DNA from: a virus
Virus record (IMG/VR): IMGVR_UViG_3300025769_000780
Span: 1 to 25,050 of that record
Strand: one strand, 5' to 3'
DNA: 25,050 nt
Part shown: positions 2,951 through 24,176 of the stretch, one piece after another
Position numbering within the stretch: the stretch's first letter is position 1
Layout of the letters: every line of letters starts with the position of its first letter
Position numbers and translations under genes: made by a program
Notes under the pieces: generated by a model
What the model saw: only the letters and a program-made list of their open reading frames with translations
What the model was told of the DNA's origin: nothing
Database searches by the model: none

Positions 2951-5041
2951 CTACATATTCTGAGTGTCAACATTACCCATCTGTGCAGGGGCTGTGCCGA
3001 CTCGACCAATCTGGGCGTTCTGCGCTTGCTGCATCTGGAAGGTATATTGACCCTGGTATTTCTCCATCCGTCCCCGGAATGCTTCATCCTGCTGTAGACG
3101 CTGTTGAATGTCCGGCTGCTGGGCGTATTGCTGTAGGACTTGCATAGCAATCTGCGCGCCTGTAGGACGTGCCGGCATTTCAATACCTGCAAAAATCTTT
3201 GTAAGATCATCGGTAACATTCTTAACCATTTCTTGTTGAGCATCTTGTGCAGGTTGCAGAACAGCATCAGCCATGACTGGATCAATGCTAGCGGCTGCAA
3301 TGTCAAGTAGTCCATCAATATTCATTCGGTTATTAACATTGAGTTGGTTCAATGCAACGAACCCTTGTAGTTTCTTTTCTACTGTTTCTGGATCACTGTC
3401 AAGAACATCAAAGTTAATCATGATGTCAAAGTTCTCATTAGGATTACCCTTGTTCATTACTTGAGGGTCAGGGATGCCTGTTACCTGGAAGAAGACTTCA
3501 TCGGGTCCAAATCTCTGGAAGCATTTATAGGCCATGCGAATAACCTCGGCTACGTGGCTAAGGTACTTATCAACCATGAACTGCTGTCTGGATTGAGACA
3601 TTGGGTCATTCGTATCCAGTCCAATCATTCTGTCAGCTTGATTGATTAGTGTTTGTTCCATCTCAAGCGATCCTTGATTGTACGCGGGGGTAGGAGCGAA
3701 GTCCAAATCTCCTTTACGGCGGTATGGAATCATACGACCTGGACCCCAGTCATTGGGTGCTTGACCCACTGGGTGCAAGATAGGAGGTAGGGTAGCTAGG
3801 CTATTGCGGTCAATCCGTGAATCACGCTCTACCTTTACTTGGTTCTGAATACCACGAAGAATACTGGGAACGGTGGATACATCATAGAGACGCTTAGTGT
3901 CCTCGGACAAGCGTGTCACTACTACTGGATAGTCTTCGTATCCGTTAAGTAGCTCGAACTTTGCATATCCGGGAGTCCCAGTGCCATCATCTCCATCAAA
4001 GTTCTTATGAAATACTGTGCAATAAATTCCTTCGGAGCCATCCTCTTCGTTAATAAGTCTCTGGTATCCGTAAACAATTTCAATCAGTTCATCAGCTTCG
4101 TATGCAGTATCCGTGAGGCTCATGCTTCGACGGCCTTCTTCGTATCGCTCAAGGCTGTCAATGTTGACCCCTCGGTATCTTTCGATCATCATATCCACGA
4201 AGTCCTGATCCCAACCATCGGTTGTTACCTTTAGTTCTAATTCCTGTGGAGTATAATACGTTTTCCAAAAGCAATACGGTGCGCGCTGCGGATCAGTTAC
4301 ATATGGAGGAAAGACGAAGTCACCATCAGGTGCTAGGGTCTTGACCTCCGGGCAATTAATTTGACGACGCACGACGGGCAGTTTCGCGATTCCTTTTTTG
4401 CGTAGATCTTTGAGTGCGGTCCTTGCTCGCTTTTCCGTAACGCCGTCAAAAACTTGCTGCATAAGCAGGATGAGTTCTTCATCGTTTTCGCCTTGCTCAA
4501 CAGCTTGAAAGATTTCTGGAGATATTTGTGCGATCTGCTGGAGGTCAATCTCTTGCTCAAAGGAGCGATCCTCCATGTGCCAGCCAACATAAGTGACTAG
4601 TAGTCCACGCTCGAGCAGGTAGTTAGCACCGAGTTCCATCTCCCTGTAGAAGCGGGGAATGTATCCGGATCGTATCATCCACTTAAGGAAACCTGATACC
4701 AATTTGCTACGGGCAATGTCTCCACTCTCCACGGGGAAGGCTCTGACGTTAGCCCTCTTGAGTGCGGACATGAATAGGGATGAAAGTTTCGTGATGCGTT
4801 CATCAATAATATGGCACTCACTATCGCTAGCACCTTCCCAAGGGAATGCGTCCGCGCCATGCTTGCGGTGATCACGGCTCTTGCCCGGCCACCAGTTCCG
4901 CCTGTCATCGTAGCTAGTACGACATAAATCAAAATAACCTTCTAGCTCAGTTACTGTTTCCTCGTAGGCAAATCGGAGAGTTTGAATGTCCGGCTCGTCA
5001 CTAACGTAAGTAAGGGCCTTTGAAATATTATTGTTCTGCAT
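2951..5041 (-). CDS. Portal protein
   Basis: A 696-residue protein in the size range of podovirus portals. The N-terminal third (YFDLCRTSYDDRRNWWPGKSRD, then DAFPWEGASDSECHIIDERI) matches the pattern of marine phage portal proteins. The middle holds an Asp/Gly-rich wing-like region (DGDDGTGTPGYAKFELLNGY), and a helical region containing LINQADRMIG follows at roughly 490-500. The C-terminus is Gln/Met-rich (QQYAQQPDIQQRLQQDEAF), typical of the barrel or crown end. The dodecameric portal would sit at the packaging vertex, bind TerL and join the tail. Its start overlaps the upstream gene by 14 nt. The assignment rests on length, sequence feel and gene order (TerL, portal, scaffold, capsid); no single motif is decisive. 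Confidence 0.88.
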   Translation of the reverse strand: MQNNNISKALTYVSDEPDIQTLRFAYEETVTELEGYFDLCRTSYDDRRNWWPGKSRDHRKHGADAFPWEGASDSECHIIDERITKLSSLFMSALKRANVRAFPVESGDIARSKLVSGFLKWMIRSGYIPRFYREMELGANYLLERGLLVTYVGWHMEDRSFEQEIDLQQIAQISPEIFQAVEQGENDEELILLMQQVFDGVTEKRARTALKDLRKKGIAKLPVVRRQINCPEVKTLAPDGDFVFPPYVTDPQRAPYCFWKTYYTPQELELKVTTDGWDQDFVDMMIERYRGVNIDSLERYEEGRRSMSLTDTAYEADELIEIVYGYQRLINEEDGSEGIYCTVFHKNFDGDDGTGTPGYAKFELLNGYEDYPVVVTRLSEDTKRLYDVSTVPSILRGIQNQVKVERDSRIDRNSLATLPPILHPVGQAPNDWGPGRMIPYRRKGDLDFAPTPAYNQGSLEMEQTLINQADRMIGLDTNDPMSQSRQQFMVDKYLSHVAEVIRMAYKCFQRFGPDEVFFQVTGIPDPQVMNKGNPNENFDIMINFDVLDSDPETVEKKLQGFVALNQLNVNNRMNIDGLLDIAAASIDPVMADAVLQPAQDAQQEMVKNVTDDLTKIFAGIEMPARPTGAQIAMQVLQQYAQQPDIQQRLQQDEAFRGRMEKYQGQYTFQMQQAQNAQIGRVGTAPAQMGNVDTQNM

Positions 5042-9105: not shown

Positions 9106-9396
9106 ATGACAATTGAATACATCACCTTCGGTATCATCGACAACCTCGTGATGATCATCGGTGCCATGACTGGCATCGAGGTCGAGAATTACCTTCCAAA
9201 GGCGTTCCAAAAGGGCCTCGGCGTAGTAGTCGGGGCTGGCCTCGGAAACGCCACCAGTGACTGGCTCGGAGGAGCCGTTGCAGGCAACCTCGGGATGGCC
9301 AATGGCACGGCCGTGGGATGCATAATTGGACTGGGATTTATCCCAGCCATACTGCTCATCAAGAACCTACGGAAAGCCAAGCAGGCGTCCAAGTAA
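9106..9396 (+). CDS. Small membrane protein with glycine-rich helices, holin-like
   Basis: A 96-residue protein with three probable membrane segments at about 5-25 (ITFGIIDNLVMIIGAMTGI), 36-60 and 65-86 (GCIIGLGFIPAILLI). It ends in a basic tail (KNLRKAKQASK). The second segment, GVVVGAGLGNATSDWLGG, carries spaced glycines typical of helix packing. Related small membrane proteins with an IDNLVMI-GA-G-E start occur in other phages, as I recall, with no assigned role. Size, topology and basic tail would suit a holin, but it is the first early gene, away from the lysozyme, so that is only one possibility. The leader has no Shine-Dalgarno site. Confidence 0.7.
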   Translation: MTIEYITFGIIDNLVMIIGAMTGIEVENYLPKAFQKGLGVVVGAGLGNATSDWLGGAVAGNLGMANGTAVGCIIGLGFIPAILLIKNLRKAKQASK

Positions 9397-10680: not shown

Positions 10681-10711
10681 AGCTCCAGCCCTCAAAGGCT
10701 GGGGCTTTTTT
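10681..10711 (+). terminator. Intrinsic terminator of the shared type
   Basis: A 10-bp stem (10681-10690 with 10697-10706), loop CTCAAA, then six T. Its flanks, CCACAGCT and GGTAGAC, match those of the terminator at 9730. A second small hairpin GCTAC/GTAGC (10722-10726/10735-10739) follows. Confidence 0.88.
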
Positions 10712-10741
10712 GGTAGACAAGGCTACGTTTTTTTGTAGCAT

Positions 10742-10775
10742 TCAAACGAGACTGCGCGTCAAACGAGACTGCGCG
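10742..10775. repeat. Two tandem 17-bp repeats
   Basis: TCAAACGAGACTGCGCG occurs perfectly at 10742-10758 and 10759-10775, directly upstream of the tRNA-like element. The copies could be arm-type binding sites, a binding site for a regulator, or a recent slippage duplication. Confidence 0.95.
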
Positions 10776-10790
10776 GAATAACAACTAACA

Positions 10791-10857
10791 GGGGGTGCCA
10801 GGCTATCGACCCGGTCAAGCACTGGGGACGGGGGTTCGACTCCTCCCACCTCCACCA
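10791..10857 (+). ncRNA. tRNA-like element resembling the tmRNA tRNA-like domain (alternatively an attP-type site)
   Basis: GGGGGTG (10791-10797) pairs over 7 bp with CACCTCC (10847-10853), followed by ACCA (10854-10857). The third pair is G-U, placed exactly as the G3-U70 alanine identity pair, with A73 as discriminator. A 5-bp T-arm GGGGG/CCTCC has the 7-nt loop TTCGACT (10830-10846). CCCGG/CTGGG (10811-10815/10823-10827, loop TCAAGCA) makes a further stem. There is no D-stem; instead GGCTATCGAC stands where tmRNA has GG..TCGAC. Total length is 67 nt, too short for a normal tRNA, and the anticodon-like loop lacks U33. It looks like a tmRNA head with the tag-coding part and pseudoknots deleted. 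The 3' half alone could be an integration core copied from a host ssrA gene. Confidence 0.5.
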
Positions 10858-10880: not shown

Positions 10881-11078
10881 ATGGACATAGAAGCATACCT
10901 AAAAACCATTGATGAAAAAACAGATGTCATGCGGAGGTGCATGGCCTACCGACAGAAGTATGAGAGATGGGACGAAGATTTTGTTCCCCTCGATGACATG
11001 AGCATTGATCAGCTATGTAAATACTATATATCCACACAAGAAATATTAAACAAACAACTAACAACTAACAACAACTAA
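10881..11078 (+). CDS. Small unknown early protein (65 aa)
   Basis: It starts MDIEAYLKTIDEKTD after a leader with CAAACAACTAGCAAT and no Shine-Dalgarno site. It is helical, with alternating charged residues (MAYRQKYERWDEDF). The C-terminal codons encode TTNNN from the repeated CAACTAA leader sequence of the next gene, so the end of this protein is dictated by the leader of its neighbour. The gap to the next ATG is 2 nt. No family is recognised. Confidence 0.6.
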   Translation: MDIEAYLKTIDEKTDVMRRCMAYRQKYERWDEDFVPLDDMSIDQLCKYYISTQEILNKQLTTNNN

Positions 11079-11080
11079 AT

Positions 11081-11557
11081 ATGTATAACGAACCCGCAAG
11101 ATCCGCACTGGCTTTTTGCCAGTCCATGACAGAAAAATATCACGAACTCCTTAAGACGGGAGATATAACCGATGCCGTCGAGCGTAGACCGAACAGGCAA
11201 AAAATCTGTGTTGATCCAGAGGCTGAGGCTAACTGGCTATCGCTAGTAATAAAAAGAATTGAAGAGGAAGAAATGAGTTGGCCCCAGGCTATCAAGGGAA
11301 CTCCGTGGGAGGGTAGACCGGAGGCAATGCGTCACCTTGCAATACGACGAGGCATTTATAGTCAAAAAACTTTGAAAGCCAAAAGGGCGGAGGCAACCCA
11401 ACGGATAAACGATGAAGCGAGACGGGTGAACAAGCTAGCCCGGAGTAGTCACATGAATCTCAAGGACGCTTTAGAGGATAGCACGATCAATGAAAATCAA
11501 TACTATGCCGCCAAGGGTAGGTTAAATTTACCTCATATAACTAAGCGTCCGAACTAG
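11081..11557 (+). CDS. Basic helical protein, possibly DNA-binding (158 aa)
   Basis: Its leader contains several tandem AACTAAC units and no Shine-Dalgarno site. The protein is basic and helical. MSWPQAIKGTPWEGRPEAMRH then LAIRRGIY, and later MNLKDALEDSTINENQYYAAKG, each have a helix-turn-helix-like rhythm (helix, short turn, helix). The middle is a long Arg/Lys/Glu helix (KTLKAKRAEATQRINDEARR). As the last gene before an operator-rich intergenic region it could be a regulator acting there. This is inference from composition and place; no known family was recognised. Confidence 0.6.
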   Translation: MYNEPARSALAFCQSMTEKYHELLKTGDITDAVERRPNRQKICVDPEAEANWLSLVIKRIEEEEMSWPQAIKGTPWEGRPEAMRHLAIRRGIYSQKTLKAKRAEATQRINDEARRVNKLARSSHMNLKDALEDSTINENQYYAAKGRLNLPHITKRPN

Positions 11558-17348: not shown

Positions 17349-20300
17349 CTAGAACAACCGTTGAGGAAGTTTAATTTCAGACGGTATAACAATAGGATCC
17401 TGTCCGACCTTCTTCTTGCGTTCGTATTTGCGTAGCTGTGATTCAGTGTTGAATCCAAACACCCTGTTTATAATTTCACTATAAGGTCCAAAGGCTGTTA
17501 TATCTTTGGGTTGAACCTTCTGTCCCATTGAAAGTCTTTGCATTACCAACAACATATCACCCGCCATCTGCAAGGACACCGGAGCGAAGTATGAAACAGC
17601 GGCCCCGAAAATACCTTCTCTTTTTATTTTGTATCCCGTGTAGGTGCTGATACCCAAAGGGGACAACAAAGAATTAATAAGGTAATCGTTCAGGTATCCT
17701 AGTCTACCCGCGATGAAATCCTTTAGTCCAGCAACGGGCATACCTATCGCAGCTAGGCCAGCCAATAATCTTAATAAGTCTATGACTGCTCTTCGTCTCT
17801 CGAGGTTAGACAGCCTTGGATCCGCAATGCGATTAATAATTTCTGAACGAGCATTATTCATCTGGTTCACCATGAAGCTCTTCATCATGTACAAGATCTG
17901 AGCATTCGGGTTCTCCGTAGCAGCCAGTGGTCGACTACCTTTACTCATTGGCTGGGACTCGTTAAGTCTTGAAAACAGAACCTGTCTTACCAAAGGTGCA
18001 TTTCTAAATTGATCTGAATTAGGTTTGCCTGGCTTGAATCTCTTGAGTTCAGCCATGAATTGAATCTGTTGATTTGGACTCAGGCCCAAGTAAGAAAGTT
18101 CTGAAGCAAACAGCTTTGATTTATTGCTGTTACGGTCCCGGTAGTATCCGTTGGTCAGTTTTCTGTATCGATTGAAGTTCGCAGTAAGATTTGCGTTCTT
18201 CATCCTCATGTCCAATTGCCTAAAGCCGGTAGTCATTAGTAATTTCCGTAAGGACTTATTACTTAAATTAGCTGCCTTAGCAAACTTAGATCCGTCCGTC
18301 CGTGCAGTCTTGTCCTGGACGAACTCACTAGCAATTTGTTCGACATCAATGCCAACCATTTGACCGGTCACTGTGTTGTTCAATATCGCAGATAAGGTTC
18401 CGATGGGATTATTTTTTACAGTAACAAACGTAGTATCCAGGAGTTGCGATAAGGTCGAAGTGAACTCAACGAGTCCTGATATGTAACCCAGGCTTCTAAG
18501 TAATTCTAACGGCGCAGCCTCTTGCTTTCTTACTCTGACTGCCCGCTGGAAGATGTCCGGGATGATTCCCTCCGCCTGCTCTTCCGTGATGCGGTTAGCC
18601 GCTACAAGTTCTCTCAACAAAACGGACAGGTCACTAGGCACTTCGTTTTTATTTATCTTAATGCCCGTGTCCTCATACGTGTAACGACGACCAATGATCC
18701 GAAGTGTCTCAAGTGAGGATGTCATGTTATAGATGTATCTTTCCAGGGCTACATCAATGTCATCGTAAGCATCAATAATTTTTGACGGAATCAGATCACC
18801 CTCAAGAACTCCAACGGTTCTTTCTTTAGTGCTGCTAGGTGTTGCCCCCTTGGGCTTTTTAAATCCTTCCTGCCGCAGGTAATCGTCAAAGTAAATGGCT
18901 TCATAGTAGGCTGTTTCTTTGCCTCCTAGTACAGGTATAATCTCCTTGTTAGCTAACTCACGAACGGACTCAGGGACGGGCTGCCCTTGTTCCTGTAACT
19001 CGTCCAGTCTAGCGCGGGCCTCTTTAATCTCTTGGTTCTGGCCCTTGATGATTACATTACCTTCGCTATCCTTCGTGCCTTTTATATACTCCCGGAAGCC
19101 AGTCTTGGCGGACTTGCCGTAATAATTTTTTACCTTATCTAGGTCATTAATAAAGCGAGGCATGTAGTCATACACCTTGCCCATCTCAACGCCTGCCTTA
19201 GTTCCTTCGTCCAGGATCTCGTCCAGGATAAATCTTGGTCCTAGCTGGAAGTCATTATACATTCCGTATTTCTTTAGGAGTGCATCTCTTTCTTTAATAA
19301 AATTCTGGCCGCGTTCGCTGACGGATACTTCACTGAACAACAATAATCTTTTTAGTCTTTGGAAGTCCCGCTTGCTTTTCTTTTCAATACCCCTGTATTT
19401 TTCTACGAAGGGTAAGGCGGCTCTCAATCTGTCCAAAGATTTGCTTTCGATATTGTAGTAATACTGATTGCTGAAACCCTTTAGGGATGGATCAATGTCA
19501 GCCAGCAAAGCGTTCATTGTTTTAGCGTACTTATCAAAAGCCGTGACTTCTATTTTCCGTTCATTAAAGGGTTCGCCCTGGACAGCAAATCCGTAATTAG
19601 AATTAGGGAAGACTGGAGCCGACTGGGCCGTAGCTTCTTTGACGATTGTTTGGTTGATAAGTTTAGCACTGGGATCAACCTGCTGTAAAAGTTCGGCAGA
19701 AGCACGGATAACTCCAGCGGCCTCTGGGTTTGCCTTAACTTCAGCCCCTAAAGTTCTAGCCAAGTAGGACTGCACCGACTTCAGAAGGGACTTGAGTTTT
19801 TCAAATGCTGGTCCTTTACGAATGTAGCTCTCGGTAAGATCTCCATACAATGCTTGCTGTATAGCAGCCCGACTGTACTCGGCACCGAATTGTGCGTCAG
19901 TCTCCAAGCCTGAGTAAACCTGTGAGATAGCTGTTCGCTGTTCCGGTGTCAGGCTTTTACCTAAGCTGGACATAAAGGACTGAAATGCTTCGCCCTCATT
20001 CTTTCCCTTAGCTTTTTGTAAAATAACCTTGGACATTGCCGCGTGAATCATTTCTTCACGCATAGCAGCTGTTATGTACTTTTGGTCCTGTTGGGCCAGT
20101 GCCGCTGGGTTGTACTCAATAACGCCCTGTGTGGCATTGTATTGAGCCATAGGAACCGTATAGTTTGGTATTATGTCTACCCCTATCTTGTCCGCCAGGG
20201 GTAAGAAGTTCTTGGTTATGAATTGATCCAGGGTATTTTGATTAAATGTACCCCCTGGGTCTGTCGGTGCTACCTGAGCAGTTTCATCTGTAGGCGCAGC

Positions 20301-23300
20301 CTTAGCTATGACATCTGTTCCAGTGCCTTCTAGGTATTCTTTTCCGGCTTCGACGAACTGGTCAACCCTTGATTGGATTGAGATTTCTCCGAAGACTTCT
20401 GGCGCAATCCGCTGCCCAGTCTCTGCAAGTCTTTGTCCGTATTGCTGCCGAAGGCGTAAGAGCCTTTCCCGTATATTGCCTGTGCTTCCTGATTGCTCAA
20501 TTTCTTGTATATAACTTTCGCCATTTTGATTATCCTTCCAATTATTTTCTGTAAATGTAGTAACTGCTGAAAAGTTCTGTATTGTTAATGAATCCGAGCC
20601 AGTATATTGCTCCGCAAACTTTTGTAAAGTGTTTTCTACGCCCCTTGCTTTTGATTCAGTTAAGCCAAAAACTATAATGCCCTGCTCTCCCGGCATTGCT
20701 CTAGTAGAGAAGCCTCTCAGTGCCTCAGCGTCCCTGGCTGCTTTTTTGTCGGCACCTGTTTGTAATTGATTTACGAAATCAACAAAGTTAGAAAGTTCAT
20801 TGTTACTTAAACCAACCAAAGCAACTGCTCTTTGATTATTGCCACCCTTACCAATGACTGCTTGCATCGTGCCGGCTTGTTCCGTAACCCAGGCTAGAGA
20901 ATTAGTAAAGATGTTCGCGGCCTCACTAGAACCCATTATATAAAAGTTTCCTGAAGGGGAAACACTGCCCTCCCAAGAACCAATGCCGAACTCCTCGTCC
21001 CTAAGTATTGCCGAGGGTGCCATCTCTTGTTGGACCCTGGGTACTATAAAACTTAATACATCTTCTGTGATTACAGTTTTTTGTTGTTCGTTAAGTTTTT
21101 GAAAATCAGGATAGATCTGTGTAATTTTAGATCCTAGGCCATAGTCTACTTCAGCAGCTACACGAAAAGTATTTTCAATCAAAGAAGATTCTAGGTCCGA
21201 TTCTTTCAAGCCGTATTGTCGTAGTATCCGCATCCATCCGACCGCTTGTACCTCAGCCGGTATCCAGTCAGTGCGACCCTTCCATCCGATGGAGTTCAAG
21301 TAATCCGTGAGACGATTACCCCAATCCGATATACCCTCGTATTCGCCCTTAGACGGAGAACCAGTCAAATCTCTGACGAGTTGAACTTCTTGGCCTCCTA
21401 CTCGAAGTATAGCTTCCTCTGGCTCGGTCTTAGTTTTACCCTTAACCGTCTTCTTTTTAACCTTCGTAATTTCTACGGAAGCTGGTTGGCCATCTACAGT
21501 AAGAACTCCATTATCTGAAAATCTTTTTATTCGTGTAAGTGTTTGTTGATCTAACTTTCCGGAGTCACGGCCAGTGTGAACATCGGCAACAAAAGGCATA
21601 CCTCCCTCAGGAGAATCGCCCATGAAAGTACGAGTTCTCTTACCCATACCCGCATCAATAAAGTCACTGAGCTTTGCATCCAGTCCTTTTTCAGCTAAGG
21701 TATCAGTAAATATAGCCTCTAGTTTTTCGTCCGCTAGACCGCCCTTCTTACCTGACTTGATGCCAGTAAGACGATCAATGACTCTAAATGTATTGCGTAC
21801 ACCACCAGCTGGTGATTCGTTTTGTTGTGATGCAAGCCATGCCAACATCATCTTTGGTCCTCTCTTCGGACCGAACTCTTTTGTAAATTTACTTTTAAGT
21901 GAATCGTACCAACCAGCCGCATTGCTTATTTCTTGGTCCGTGAACCATGCAGAAGTTTCTTCGGTCCAACCTTCAAAACTCTTGCCGCCTCTCTCTGAAT
22001 CCTTACCTATATAAATAGGCTTGCCGTTGACTTCTAATCTAAGCGATGGATTCTTACCTTCTCCAGTTCCAGCTCTACGTCTTTTCTTGCTAGCTAAATT
22101 TTGCGCTGGGTCACCAGATGCTCCTTTAATAAAGTCAATGGTTTGTACAGGCGCAGCCCCGGCTACTACGTCTGGATCAACAGCACCCTCTACTTCACGA
22201 GAAAGAAACTCGTTACGCGGGGTCTTTCCGTACACTGGATTTTTAGCTAGGACAAGTGGTCCAATCTGTATGACCTCATCGGCGGACATTACCTCTTGCA
22301 TACTAGAACGATCATAGAAGTAACCCCTTCGCTTGGGGTCCATGCCCACTTGTATAAAAGATGGATCCTTGATTGCCGCATTAGCGCGAGCAACAGCCTG
22401 ATCTTCGGTTAAGTTTACATACTGCCCCAGTATTGTGGCTATTGGTATTTTAGTTTCTTTCTTAGAAGCAATACCCGTAGCTATAACTTGACCGGCAGGT
22501 TTGTCGTAACCCACGATGCCAAACCTTGGATTAGTAACAACTGAAGTAGATTGATGACTAATAGAAGCACCACCTCTAAATCCTTTTGTTTTTTCTGTAG
22601 CTCCGTGAATGGTAGGAACCCATACACCGTGATCTCGGTAAGCAGGAATGTCTAGGCGCAGTTTAACAAATGTTCCCGTTGGAAGATTCCTGGCTTGATT
22701 AATTTTTTCACGCTTGTCTTCGGCCAGCCCACGAAGCATATCAGATTCACTCGCAGGAGGAGGAACCTCCTTGTATGGCCTAACGGGATTAACTCTGTCT
22801 ATAACGCTAGCAAGCTGCTTGCTCTCAGATGGTGTAATCCTGCCGCCTGACTTTAACTTTGTAAAGATAGGCAAAGCCGCTTTAACCACCTCTGGTTTTG
22901 GCATCATTTCTTTTCTATAAGGAGTAAATGCACCTACGGTAATATCCTTTTCGTCCAGAATGTTAGGCAGCCTATCTCCGGCCTGGGCTATCGGGTCAAG
23001 TTCTTCGGCTAACTCTTGACTAATAATATCAATTTCATCTTGAGTAAGTTCTGCCTCCACGACCTCTTCTTCTACTGCGGCTTCTTCCTCTACTACAGGA
23101 TCCGGGGTAACCTCTTTCTCTACCTTGAAGTCAGATGTATTAATACCCTCGTATTTTATGTTGACTGCACGATCACCTAAGCCCTGGGTAGCAAGCCTAA
23201 CGGCTTCCTCTGGATTAGCTGCTTGGAGATTGAGAATGCTTTGTTCGTCGTTCTTGGGATTAATATAGCTGACCGTATAAGTAAGTTCAGTATCCGGGTC

Positions 23301-24176
23301 AACGCCTTGTTCGACAGCCTGTTCATCGGGTGATAGGTTCCTGTCCTGGAAGGCCTGGTATCCAACAAACGGAGTAGTCACCGTTCCACCAGCAACTGCC
23401 CCCAATAAAATTGATTCAAAGACACCTTCAGTGATCTCACGGTCAGGGTCATATTGCATTAACTCACTGGCTAATGTGTTCTGGAATATAGTCTGGCTAC
23501 CCTCGGTTAAGCCTTCTCCAACAGCAGAGCTTGCTATCCTTTTACCCGCCTCTCTAATTGTTACCTTGGACTGACCTCTAAATATATTATCTACTAACCG
23601 AGTAGCACCAAAACGCTCAAGGACAACAATAGGTACAGCGGAGAACGCTCCAACCTTGTCTGCCTCCTTGAGTTGATCCTCACTTGCGCTAACAGAAGTA
23701 ACACCCTGTGTTGATAAATAATCATCCCTGCCTTGTTGGTATGCGTTAGCAGTCAAAGCTGATAAGCCGATTGGTCCGGTGGCCGCTGCCGCCATGTAAG
23801 CAGGGGTCTGCGCTATGGTAGTTACGGCCTTGTATCCGAACTTACTTTTATCTTCGTCCGATACACTGCCCTCATAAAATTCTTTGCTGTAATTCCTGAA
23901 GTCAGATACAGTTTTTACTAAATCCGAATCCCCGGTAAGCCTAGATATACCAGAGGCTACGCCTTCAAGGGTTGCGTAACCAACGTCAGAAAAACCAGCA
24001 AGTGCCGCTTGTGTGTATTTTTTTGCGCTGTCCAGTAGCCCGCCGTCATCTAGCTTGGTCCTGTATTGAGGATACTTCTTGAGGATTGAATCAGCTAATT
24101 GATCATTATCAATGGCAGCGTATTGTGGATACTTGTTTTTAACTGATTCAGCAAGCTGCTGTCTAGTGTACTCCAT
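17349..24176 (-). CDS. Giant polyvalent virion protein, probably an internal/ejection protein (2275 aa)
   Basis: The N-terminus has two KYPQY repeats (15-19 and 34-38), then Gly/Ala-rich hydrophobic segments (about 115-145), and an acidic linker near 350-400 (EEEAAVEEEVVEAELTQDE). Residues about 495-660 carry YFYDRSSMQEVMSADEVIQIG, and about 740-860 carry WLASQQNESPAGGVRN and TRTFMGDSPEGGMPFVADVH, blocks I associate with phage large polyvalent proteins. MREEMIHAAM near 1372 resembles a zinc-metalloprotease helix but lacks the first His of HExxH. The C-terminus (about 2130-2220) has amphipathic hydrophobic stretches (LLRLLAGLAAIGMPVAGL). Such proteins are usually packaged and injected, like T7 gp16. 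There is no Shine-Dalgarno site. The role is inference; the domain blocks are from memory. Confidence 0.75.
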   Translation of the reverse strand: MEYTRQQLAESVKNKYPQYAAIDNDQLADSILKKYPQYRTKLDDGGLLDSAKKYTQAALAGFSDVGYATLEGVASGISRLTGDSDLVKTVSDFRNYSKEFYEGSVSDEDKSKFGYKAVTTIAQTPAYMAAAATGPIGLSALTANAYQQGRDDYLSTQGVTSVSASEDQLKEADKVGAFSAVPIVVLERFGATRLVDNIFRGQSKVTIREAGKRIASSAVGEGLTEGSQTIFQNTLASELMQYDPDREITEGVFESILLGAVAGGTVTTPFVGYQAFQDRNLSPDEQAVEQGVDPDTELTYTVSYINPKNDEQSILNLQAANPEEAVRLATQGLGDRAVNIKYEGINTSDFKVEKEVTPDPVVEEEAAVEEEVVEAELTQDEIDIISQELAEELDPIAQAGDRLPNILDEKDITVGAFTPYRKEMMPKPEVVKAALPIFTKLKSGGRITPSESKQLASVIDRVNPVRPYKEVPPPASESDMLRGLAEDKREKINQARNLPTGTFVKLRLDIPAYRDHGVWVPTIHGATEKTKGFRGGASISHQSTSVVTNPRFGIVGYDKPAGQVIATGIASKKETKIPIATILGQYVNLTEDQAVARANAAIKDPSFIQVGMDPKRRGYFYDRSSMQEVMSADEVIQIGPLVLAKNPVYGKTPRNEFLSREVEGAVDPDVVAGAAPVQTIDFIKGASGDPAQNLASKKRRRAGTGEGKNPSLRLEVNGKPIYIGKDSERGGKSFEGWTEETSAWFTDQEISNAAGWYDSLKSKFTKEFGPKRGPKMMLAWLASQQNESPAGGVRNTFRVIDRLTGIKSGKKGGLADEKLEAIFTDTLAEKGLDAKLSDFIDAGMGKRTRTFMGDSPEGGMPFVADVHTGRDSGKLDQQTLTRIKRFSDNGVLTVDGQPASVEITKVKKKTVKGKTKTEPEEAILRVGGQEVQLVRDLTGSPSKGEYEGISDWGNRLTDYLNSIGWKGRTDWIPAEVQAVGWMRILRQYGLKESDLESSLIENTFRVAAEVDYGLGSKITQIYPDFQKLNEQQKTVITEDVLSFIVPRVQQEMAPSAILRDEEFGIGSWEGSVSPSGNFYIMGSSEAANIFTNSLAWVTEQAGTMQAVIGKGGNNQRAVALVGLSNNELSNFVDFVNQLQTGADKKAARDAEALRGFSTRAMPGEQGIIVFGLTESKARGVENTLQKFAEQYTGSDSLTIQNFSAVTTFTENNWKDNQNGESYIQEIEQSGSTGNIRERLLRLRQQYGQRLAETGQRIAPEVFGEISIQSRVDQFVEAGKEYLEGTGTDVIAKAAPTDETAQVAPTDPGGTFNQNTLDQFITKNFLPLADKIGVDIIPNYTVPMAQYNATQGVIEYNPAALAQQDQKYITAAMREEMIHAAMSKVILQKAKGKNEGEAFQSFMSSLGKSLTPEQRTAISQVYSGLETDAQFGAEYSRAAIQQALYGDLTESYIRKGPAFEKLKSLLKSVQSYLARTLGAEVKANPEAAGVIRASAELLQQVDPSAKLINQTIVKEATAQSAPVFPNSNYGFAVQGEPFNERKIEVTAFDKYAKTMNALLADIDPSLKGFSNQYYYNIESKSLDRLRAALPFVEKYRGIEKKSKRDFQRLKRLLLFSEVSVSERGQNFIKERDALLKKYGMYNDFQLGPRFILDEILDEGTKAGVEMGKVYDYMPRFINDLDKVKNYYGKSAKTGFREYIKGTKDSEGNVIIKGQNQEIKEARARLDELQEQGQPVPESVRELANKEIIPVLGGKETAYYEAIYFDDYLRQEGFKKPKGATPSSTKERTVGVLEGDLIPSKIIDAYDDIDVALERYIYNMTSSLETLRIIGRRYTYEDTGIKINKNEVPSDLSVLLRELVAANRITEEQAEGIIPDIFQRAVRVRKQEAAPLELLRSLGYISGLVEFTSTLSQLLDTTFVTVKNNPIGTLSAILNNTVTGQMVGIDVEQIASEFVQDKTARTDGSKFAKAANLSNKSLRKLLMTTGFRQLDMRMKNANLTANFNRYRKLTNGYYRDRNSNKSKLFASELSYLGLSPNQQIQFMAELKRFKPGKPNSDQFRNAPLVRQVLFSRLNESQPMSKGSRPLAATENPNAQILYMMKSFMVNQMNNARSEIINRIADPRLSNLERRRAVIDLLRLLAGLAAIGMPVAGLKDFIAGRLGYLNDYLINSLLSPLGISTYTGYKIKREGIFGAAVSYFAPVSLQMAGDMLLVMQRLSMGQKVQPKDITAFGPYSEIINRVFGFNTESQLRKYERKKKVGQDPIVIPSEIKLPQRLF

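Follow-up and report, generated by a model that had tools for sequence, protein, structure and literature searches.

A message-less tmRNA in a virus genome fragment

Positions 10791-10857 (plus strand) of the virus record IMGVR_UViG_3300025769_000780 encode the tRNA-like domain (TLD) of transfer-messenger RNA (tmRNA), in its normal, unpermuted order and without a message. The stretch analyzed, hereafter the window, is the whole of 25,050 bases and is classed as a virus. The element is 67 nt long, including an encoded CCA, and TLD-only elements of this type are present in many phages.

The Rfam tmRNA model RF00023 matches 10791-10857 with 56.1 bits (E 1e-19), the top score in its clan; the curated cut-off is 47 bits. 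The alignment spans model positions 1-374 with both ends matched, and approximately 312 columns of the message domain are deleted. An independent covariance model, R1, which was derived from 19 other phage TLDs with the window's clade left out, gives the element 44.8 bits. Given these two scores, the resemblance is not due to chance. The original prediction, made from the letters alone, had proposed a likeness to tmRNA without its message part and a check with the tmRNA model, and the RF00023 match bears this out. No other Rfam family matches the window at its curated cut-off, and ARAGORN finds neither a tRNA nor a tmRNA in it. By itself, the folding energy of the element does not reach significance (z -0.69), and its predicted minimum-energy fold is another one; the case for the element therefore rests on homology and covariation.

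The element reads GGGGGTG CCAGGCTA TCGAC CCGGT CAAGC ACTGG GGAC GGGGG TTCGACT CCTCC CACCTCC A CCA. Its acceptor stem is formed by GGGGGUG (10791-10797) and CACCUCC (10847-10853), with 7/7 pairs. The determinants of alanine identity are present, namely G3-U70 (10793-10851), A73 (10854) and CCA (10855-10857). The stemless D-region CCAGGCUAUCGAC (10798-10810) aligns to the tmRNA consensus GGaUUCGAC and thus has the tmRNA-type D-loop GG..UCGAC, a region that binds SmpB in tmRNA. It is followed by helix P2 (10811-10825), by the GGAC that is conserved in tmRNA between P2 and the T-arm (10826-10829), and by the T-arm GGGGG-UUCGACU-CCUCC (10830-10846), a 5-bp stem with one G-U pair. The acceptor, the T-arm and the lack of a D-stem had been described correctly in the original prediction. 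It had also reported a further 5-bp stem with a 7-nt loop; the helix is real and corresponds to P2, but in a slightly different register the loop has 5 nt.

P2 consists of CCGGU/ACUGG closed by the loop CAAGC, or 6 bp if C10810-G10826 is counted, and it takes the place of the mRNA-like domain and pseudoknots. According to the RF00023 alignment, and with a P2 loop of only 5 nt, the element contains no mRNA-like domain, tag reading frame, resume codon or pseudoknots.

Three other identities were considered and rejected. An ordinary tRNA-Ala does not fit, as there is no D-stem and ARAGORN finds no tRNA. In a permuted two-piece tmRNA (RF04321) the acceptor piece would come before a coding piece, whereas here a single 67-nt unit holds first the 5′ and then the 3′ acceptor strand; moreover, RF04321 has no match at its cut-off in the window. 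A complete tmRNA (ssrA) does not fit the deletion of the message-domain columns.

Gain, loss and compensation among close relatives

R1 finds the TLD in seven relatives of the window phage. In six of these (L259, L266, L267, L269, L271 and L273), it occupies the same site as in the window, directly after AACAACTAACA. In the seventh (L280), it lies approximately 0.8 kb away at a second site, after the terminator of the previous gene, so that both positions used in the clade are downstream of a terminator. Two further records (L373 and L384) carry the same type of TLD with similar upstream sequence. In three relatives (L256, L258 and L260), AACAACTAACA runs directly into the leader of the next gene with no TLD, which places the empty-site junction at 10790-10791 on the plus strand.

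P2 differs in sequence within the clade while remaining paired: CCGGU/ACUGG in the window, UUGGU/ACUAA in L259, L266 and L267, and UUGGA/UCCAA in L280. These variants include compensatory changes from CC/GG to UU/AA and from U-A to A-U. Because the TLD is gained, lost and moved as a whole, and its helix is kept by compensation, it looks like a functional RNA gene rather than a scar.

A wider class of TLD-only tmRNAs in phages

We scanned IMG/VR with the pattern TCGAC-N8..38-GGAC..GGGTTCGA.TCC, which requires neither acceptor pairing nor G3-U70. The fractions and pairing percentages in this section are among the matches listed. In this first scan, 109 of 121 matches, the window included, have at least 6/7 upstream acceptor pairs, with 7/7 in 107, and G3-U70 is present in 107 of those 109. 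The second scan was aimed at short loops and yielded at least 88 matches that combine an acceptor with G3-U70; a few of these also appear in the first scan. Together the scans give at least 158 TLD-only viral loci and at least 134 distinct sequences; the lists comprise 84 distinct "long" sequences (first scan) and 50 distinct "short" ones (second scan), with a small overlap. Some pattern matches, including L030, L059 and L062, are ordinary tRNAs and were removed by the acceptor test.

The long forms are mostly 78-80 nt and mostly lack the CCA. An encoded CCA occurs in a minority, i.e., 23/109 long-form loci and 22/50 short forms. Many host tRNAs need CCA addition, and TLD loci without an encoded CCA would need it likewise.

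Pairing in P2 is a general feature of the class. Over its first five positions, 92.7% are paired in 80 distinct long-form segments (43% when shuffled) and 91.9% in 42 short-form segments (54% when shuffled). In a class-wide alignment (A2), there are 103 double-changed cells versus 31 in shuffles, and the covariation score is 0.61 versus 0.14; the percentage paired, the double-changed cells, the pair types and the covariation score all exceed those of 500/500 shuffles. A CCGCA..GCGG-type hairpin caps P2 in 35 of the 84 long forms and may add a further function to these 78-80-nt RNAs, and UUCG loops close P2 in several short forms.

The class has gone mostly unannotated because ARAGORN misses nearly all of the loci: its calls overlap 7 of the 158 loci listed, and it calls a tmRNA at 4. 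Named phages are among the carriers. The Streptomyces phages GiJojo, LuckySocke, pSt2308 and BRock have a TLD (R1 77-89 bits, Rfam 57-64 bits) inside a shared tRNA cluster, where it is unannotated or lies beneath a hypothetical protein; in these four phages, we found no full-length tmRNA (RF00023) and no tyrosine integrase. Microbacterium phage Armstrong likely has a divergent copy, and phage Alone3 has a degenerate one in which the D-region and T-stem are damaged. In two loci (L029 and L037), CCAGGTCCACC, which looks like an acceptor 3′ end, stands directly upstream of the TLD, and two records (G045 and G046) show a second, weak R1 match; these are possibly tandem TLDs or tRNAs.

When the window element was compared by BLAST to the phage collection, the matches were T-arms of full or permuted tmRNAs. 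Those in Pseudomonas, Alcaligenes, Ruegeria and Acinetobacter phages belong to complete permuted tmRNAs and were dropped from the TLD-only set, as were S-CRM01, Kumao, BUCTxx99 and the crAss-like phages cr50_1 and cr130_1. Unannotated permuted tmRNA genes (L243, L244, L245, L246, L447) were observed in Pseudomonas PA_L9, Alcaligenes QDWS595, Ruegeria RpAliso, Acinetobacter BUCT628 and Stenotrophomonas BUCTxx99 phages. In cr50_1, a RAGATH-22 RNA (L337 868-1034, 155.6 bits) lies approximately 0.4 kb upstream of the permuted tmRNA.

A pattern scan of bacterial-genome contigs served as a control only and not as a census of bacterial TLD-only genes; nearly all matches listed resemble the 3′ ends of normal full ssrA genes, whose PK4 supplies the TCGAC, and a 7/7 upstream acceptor is seen in none of them. 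One bacterial genome (L152, Peribacillus huizhouensis) has two ssrA 3′ ends (2538-2593 and 3648-3703) 1.1 kb apart, reflecting a duplicated tmRNA gene or an attachment-site duplication.

Genomic context

The window encodes a large terminase, an exonuclease, an endonuclease VII, an Erf-like annealing protein, a DnaB-like helicase and a lysozyme. Hundreds of related terminases occur in IMG/VR, but only one in the phage collection, that of phage C75C1 (71% identity). C75C1 is circular (39,484 bp) and has replication genes similar to those of the window; neither a TLD nor a tyrosine integrase was found in it.

The TLD stands at the head of the exonuclease/endonuclease VII/Erf/helicase operon. The preceding gene ends in an intrinsic terminator (10681-10706, plus strand), a 10-bp stem with a T tail. 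Downstream of it is the promoter-like sequence TAGACA-N16-TAGCAT (10714-10741, plus strand), a consensus match that is not proof of a promoter. Its hexamers are kept, while the spacer sequence varies, in relatives with and without the TLD. To judge from the consensus match, it looks like the promoter of the operon, in which case the TLD would be part of the leader.

Several additional features were observed. A direct repeat, TCAAACGAGACTGCGCG, at 10748-10776, just past the promoter-like site, varies strongly in relatives (TGCCGCGCAGC variants). Upstream of gene starts (11045-11085 in the window, and in other leaders), there are AACAACTAAC repeats in place of a clear Shine-Dalgarno sequence, and the TLD's insertion point is right after one AACAACTAAC-type motif. 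More than a quarter of the window is taken up by a 2275-aa open reading frame (ORF) on the minus strand (17349-24176), and a 96-aa ORF at 9106-9396 weakly resembles TMEM65, with a Pfam E of 2.6e-5 that falls just short of the cut-off.

Possible functions of the element

We lean, by a modest degree, toward the hypothesis that the TLD-only RNA is a trans-acting decoy that binds SmpB, alanyl-tRNA synthetase (AlaRS) and EF-Tu, and thereby damps trans-translation. Transcription would probably start at the promoter-like site, which lies between the upstream terminator and the TLD, and the transcript would probably be trimmed like a tRNA. The mature form would be charged with alanine by the host AlaRS via G3-U70, A73 and CCA, and be bound by host SmpB and EF-Tu. 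Charging and binding are expected because the acceptor, T-loop and D-region, which are the binding sites in tmRNA, have been kept: the SmpB contacts are on the TLD elbow and D-loop, and the TLD is also engaged by EF-Tu and the ribosome (PMC3968760). There is no SmpB gene in the 50 phage records searched, and therefore host SmpB would be needed. Lacking a tag template, the RNA would compete with host tmRNA for SmpB and stalled ribosomes, and tagging and trans-translation would be lowered during infection.

There is a precedent for such an effect. According to two papers that both cite Mao et al. 2009 (PMC4131195, PMC11915505), the TLD-only RNA of mycobacteriophage DS6A reportedly inhibits the endogenous tmRNA of E. 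coli; a similar molecule reportedly had this effect whether or not it could be charged, perhaps via SmpB titration. The original prediction of an aminoacylatable, SmpB-binding-like RNA that acts as a decoy or modulator of trans-translation is consistent with all of our evidence and with this precedent.

One point weighs against this hypothesis: if many TLD copies are charged, they might rescue ribosomes rather than only block them.

In an alternative that we consider unlikely, yet worth weighing, nonstop ribosomes would admit the charged TLD together with SmpB and EF-Tu, pass the nascent chain on to it and be cleared with its help, without a degradation tag being added, so that phage proteins are spared. 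Room for such a role exists because alanine identity is retained; a pure SmpB sponge would not need an acceptor with G3-U70 and A73. Moreover, message-less tmRNAs persist alongside SmpB in jakobid and oomycete mitochondria (PMC11915505, PMC4131195). However, with no resume or stop codon, there is no known way to finish release, and inhibition of tmRNA is the effect that has been published for the DS6A form.

A role in cis seems improbable to us. Here, the TLD would be a tRNA-like leader element of the replication operon, and its processing would set the 5′ end or the expression of downstream genes. Its location, approximately 50 nt past the promoter-like site and just before the operon, is as this would predict, and a terminator precedes it at both clade positions. 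However, the next gene differs among relatives with the TLD at the same site, some of which lack the window's small ORF, and in the Streptomyces phages the TLD sits in a tRNA cluster. In addition, plain RNase P processing does not need the tmRNA-specific GG..UCGAC and GGAC.

The original prediction had also raised the possibility that the element is the core of an attachment site copied from a host ssrA, and had suggested a search for an integrase elsewhere in the genome. Integration at ssrA is common, and some phages do carry 3′ fragments of this gene at attP: Gordonia phage Yeezy and Moorella phage MCACPph1 have them at integrase genes, without the 5′ half. However, RF00023 gives the Yeezy fragment 17 bits, and its match in Moorella is limited to model 171-374, while the TLD has an intact and covarying 5′ acceptor, D-region and P2. 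No integrase (PF00589) was found in the window, which is a genome fragment, or in clade relatives of up to 37 kb. PF00589 occurs in 3 of the 50 records searched, none of the window's clade, and there the TLD is approximately 1 to 9 kb from the integrase. Together with the compensatory changes, the two insertion sites and the clean absences, these observations make an attachment site very improbable. We give equally little credence to the idea that the element is decaying from a full phage tmRNA. Some phages do carry full tmRNAs and the Alone3 copy is damaged, but there are compensatory changes both class-wide and in the clade, and many independent copies have closed P2 hairpins, including UUCG-type tetraloops.

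Relationship to known RNAs and implications

RNAs of this kind are already known from DS6A and from organelles. The DS6A RNA is, like the window element, phage-encoded, has little more than a TLD and has no tag frame; however, DS6A is a single mycobacteriophage, compared here by description, and the terminase of the window phage matches only the one phage-collection record. The message-less tmRNAs of jakobid and oomycete mitochondria and Mallomonadaceae plastids (approximately 65 bp in plastids; PMC11915505) are likewise TLDs without an mRNA-like domain, but some have a nuclear-encoded SmpB, whereas the 50 phage records have no gene for it. Bacterial ssrA shares the G3-U70 acceptor, A73, CCA, GG..UCGAC D-region, GGAC and T-arm with the window element, which differs in having no mRNA-like domain, resume codon or pseudoknots and a P2 that ends in a short loop. 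Phage-borne tmRNA genes also include the permuted two-piece ones of Melnitz (PMC9004378) and of the Pseudomonas, Alcaligenes, Ruegeria and Acinetobacter phages, but those are complete (RF04321), while the window element keeps the unpermuted order and lacks a coding piece. In tRNA-dependent lysogeny (PMC10865867), a phage likewise carries an intact gene of tRNA type; however, that system depends on an integrase and on a tRNA that stands in for the disrupted host gene, and a TLD alone cannot replace ssrA, nor was an integrase found.

In the literature searched, outside which most subscription journals lie, there is no report of TLD-only tmRNAs as a broad phage class, and DS6A seems to be the only phage reported to have such an RNA. 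In our judgment, the chances are evenly balanced that message-less tmRNAs are a widespread, repeatedly acquired class of phage genes whose target is the ribosome rescue of the host, the equivalent in RNA of anti-defence or host-takeover proteins. If so, many phages benefit from altering trans-translation, and why they do could be tested directly in culturable systems, e.g., Streptomyces lividans with phage LuckySocke. If these TLDs act like that of DS6A, manipulation of ribosome rescue would be a common phage strategy, and TLD-only RNAs would be natural minimal inhibitors of a pathway that is pursued as an antibiotic target.
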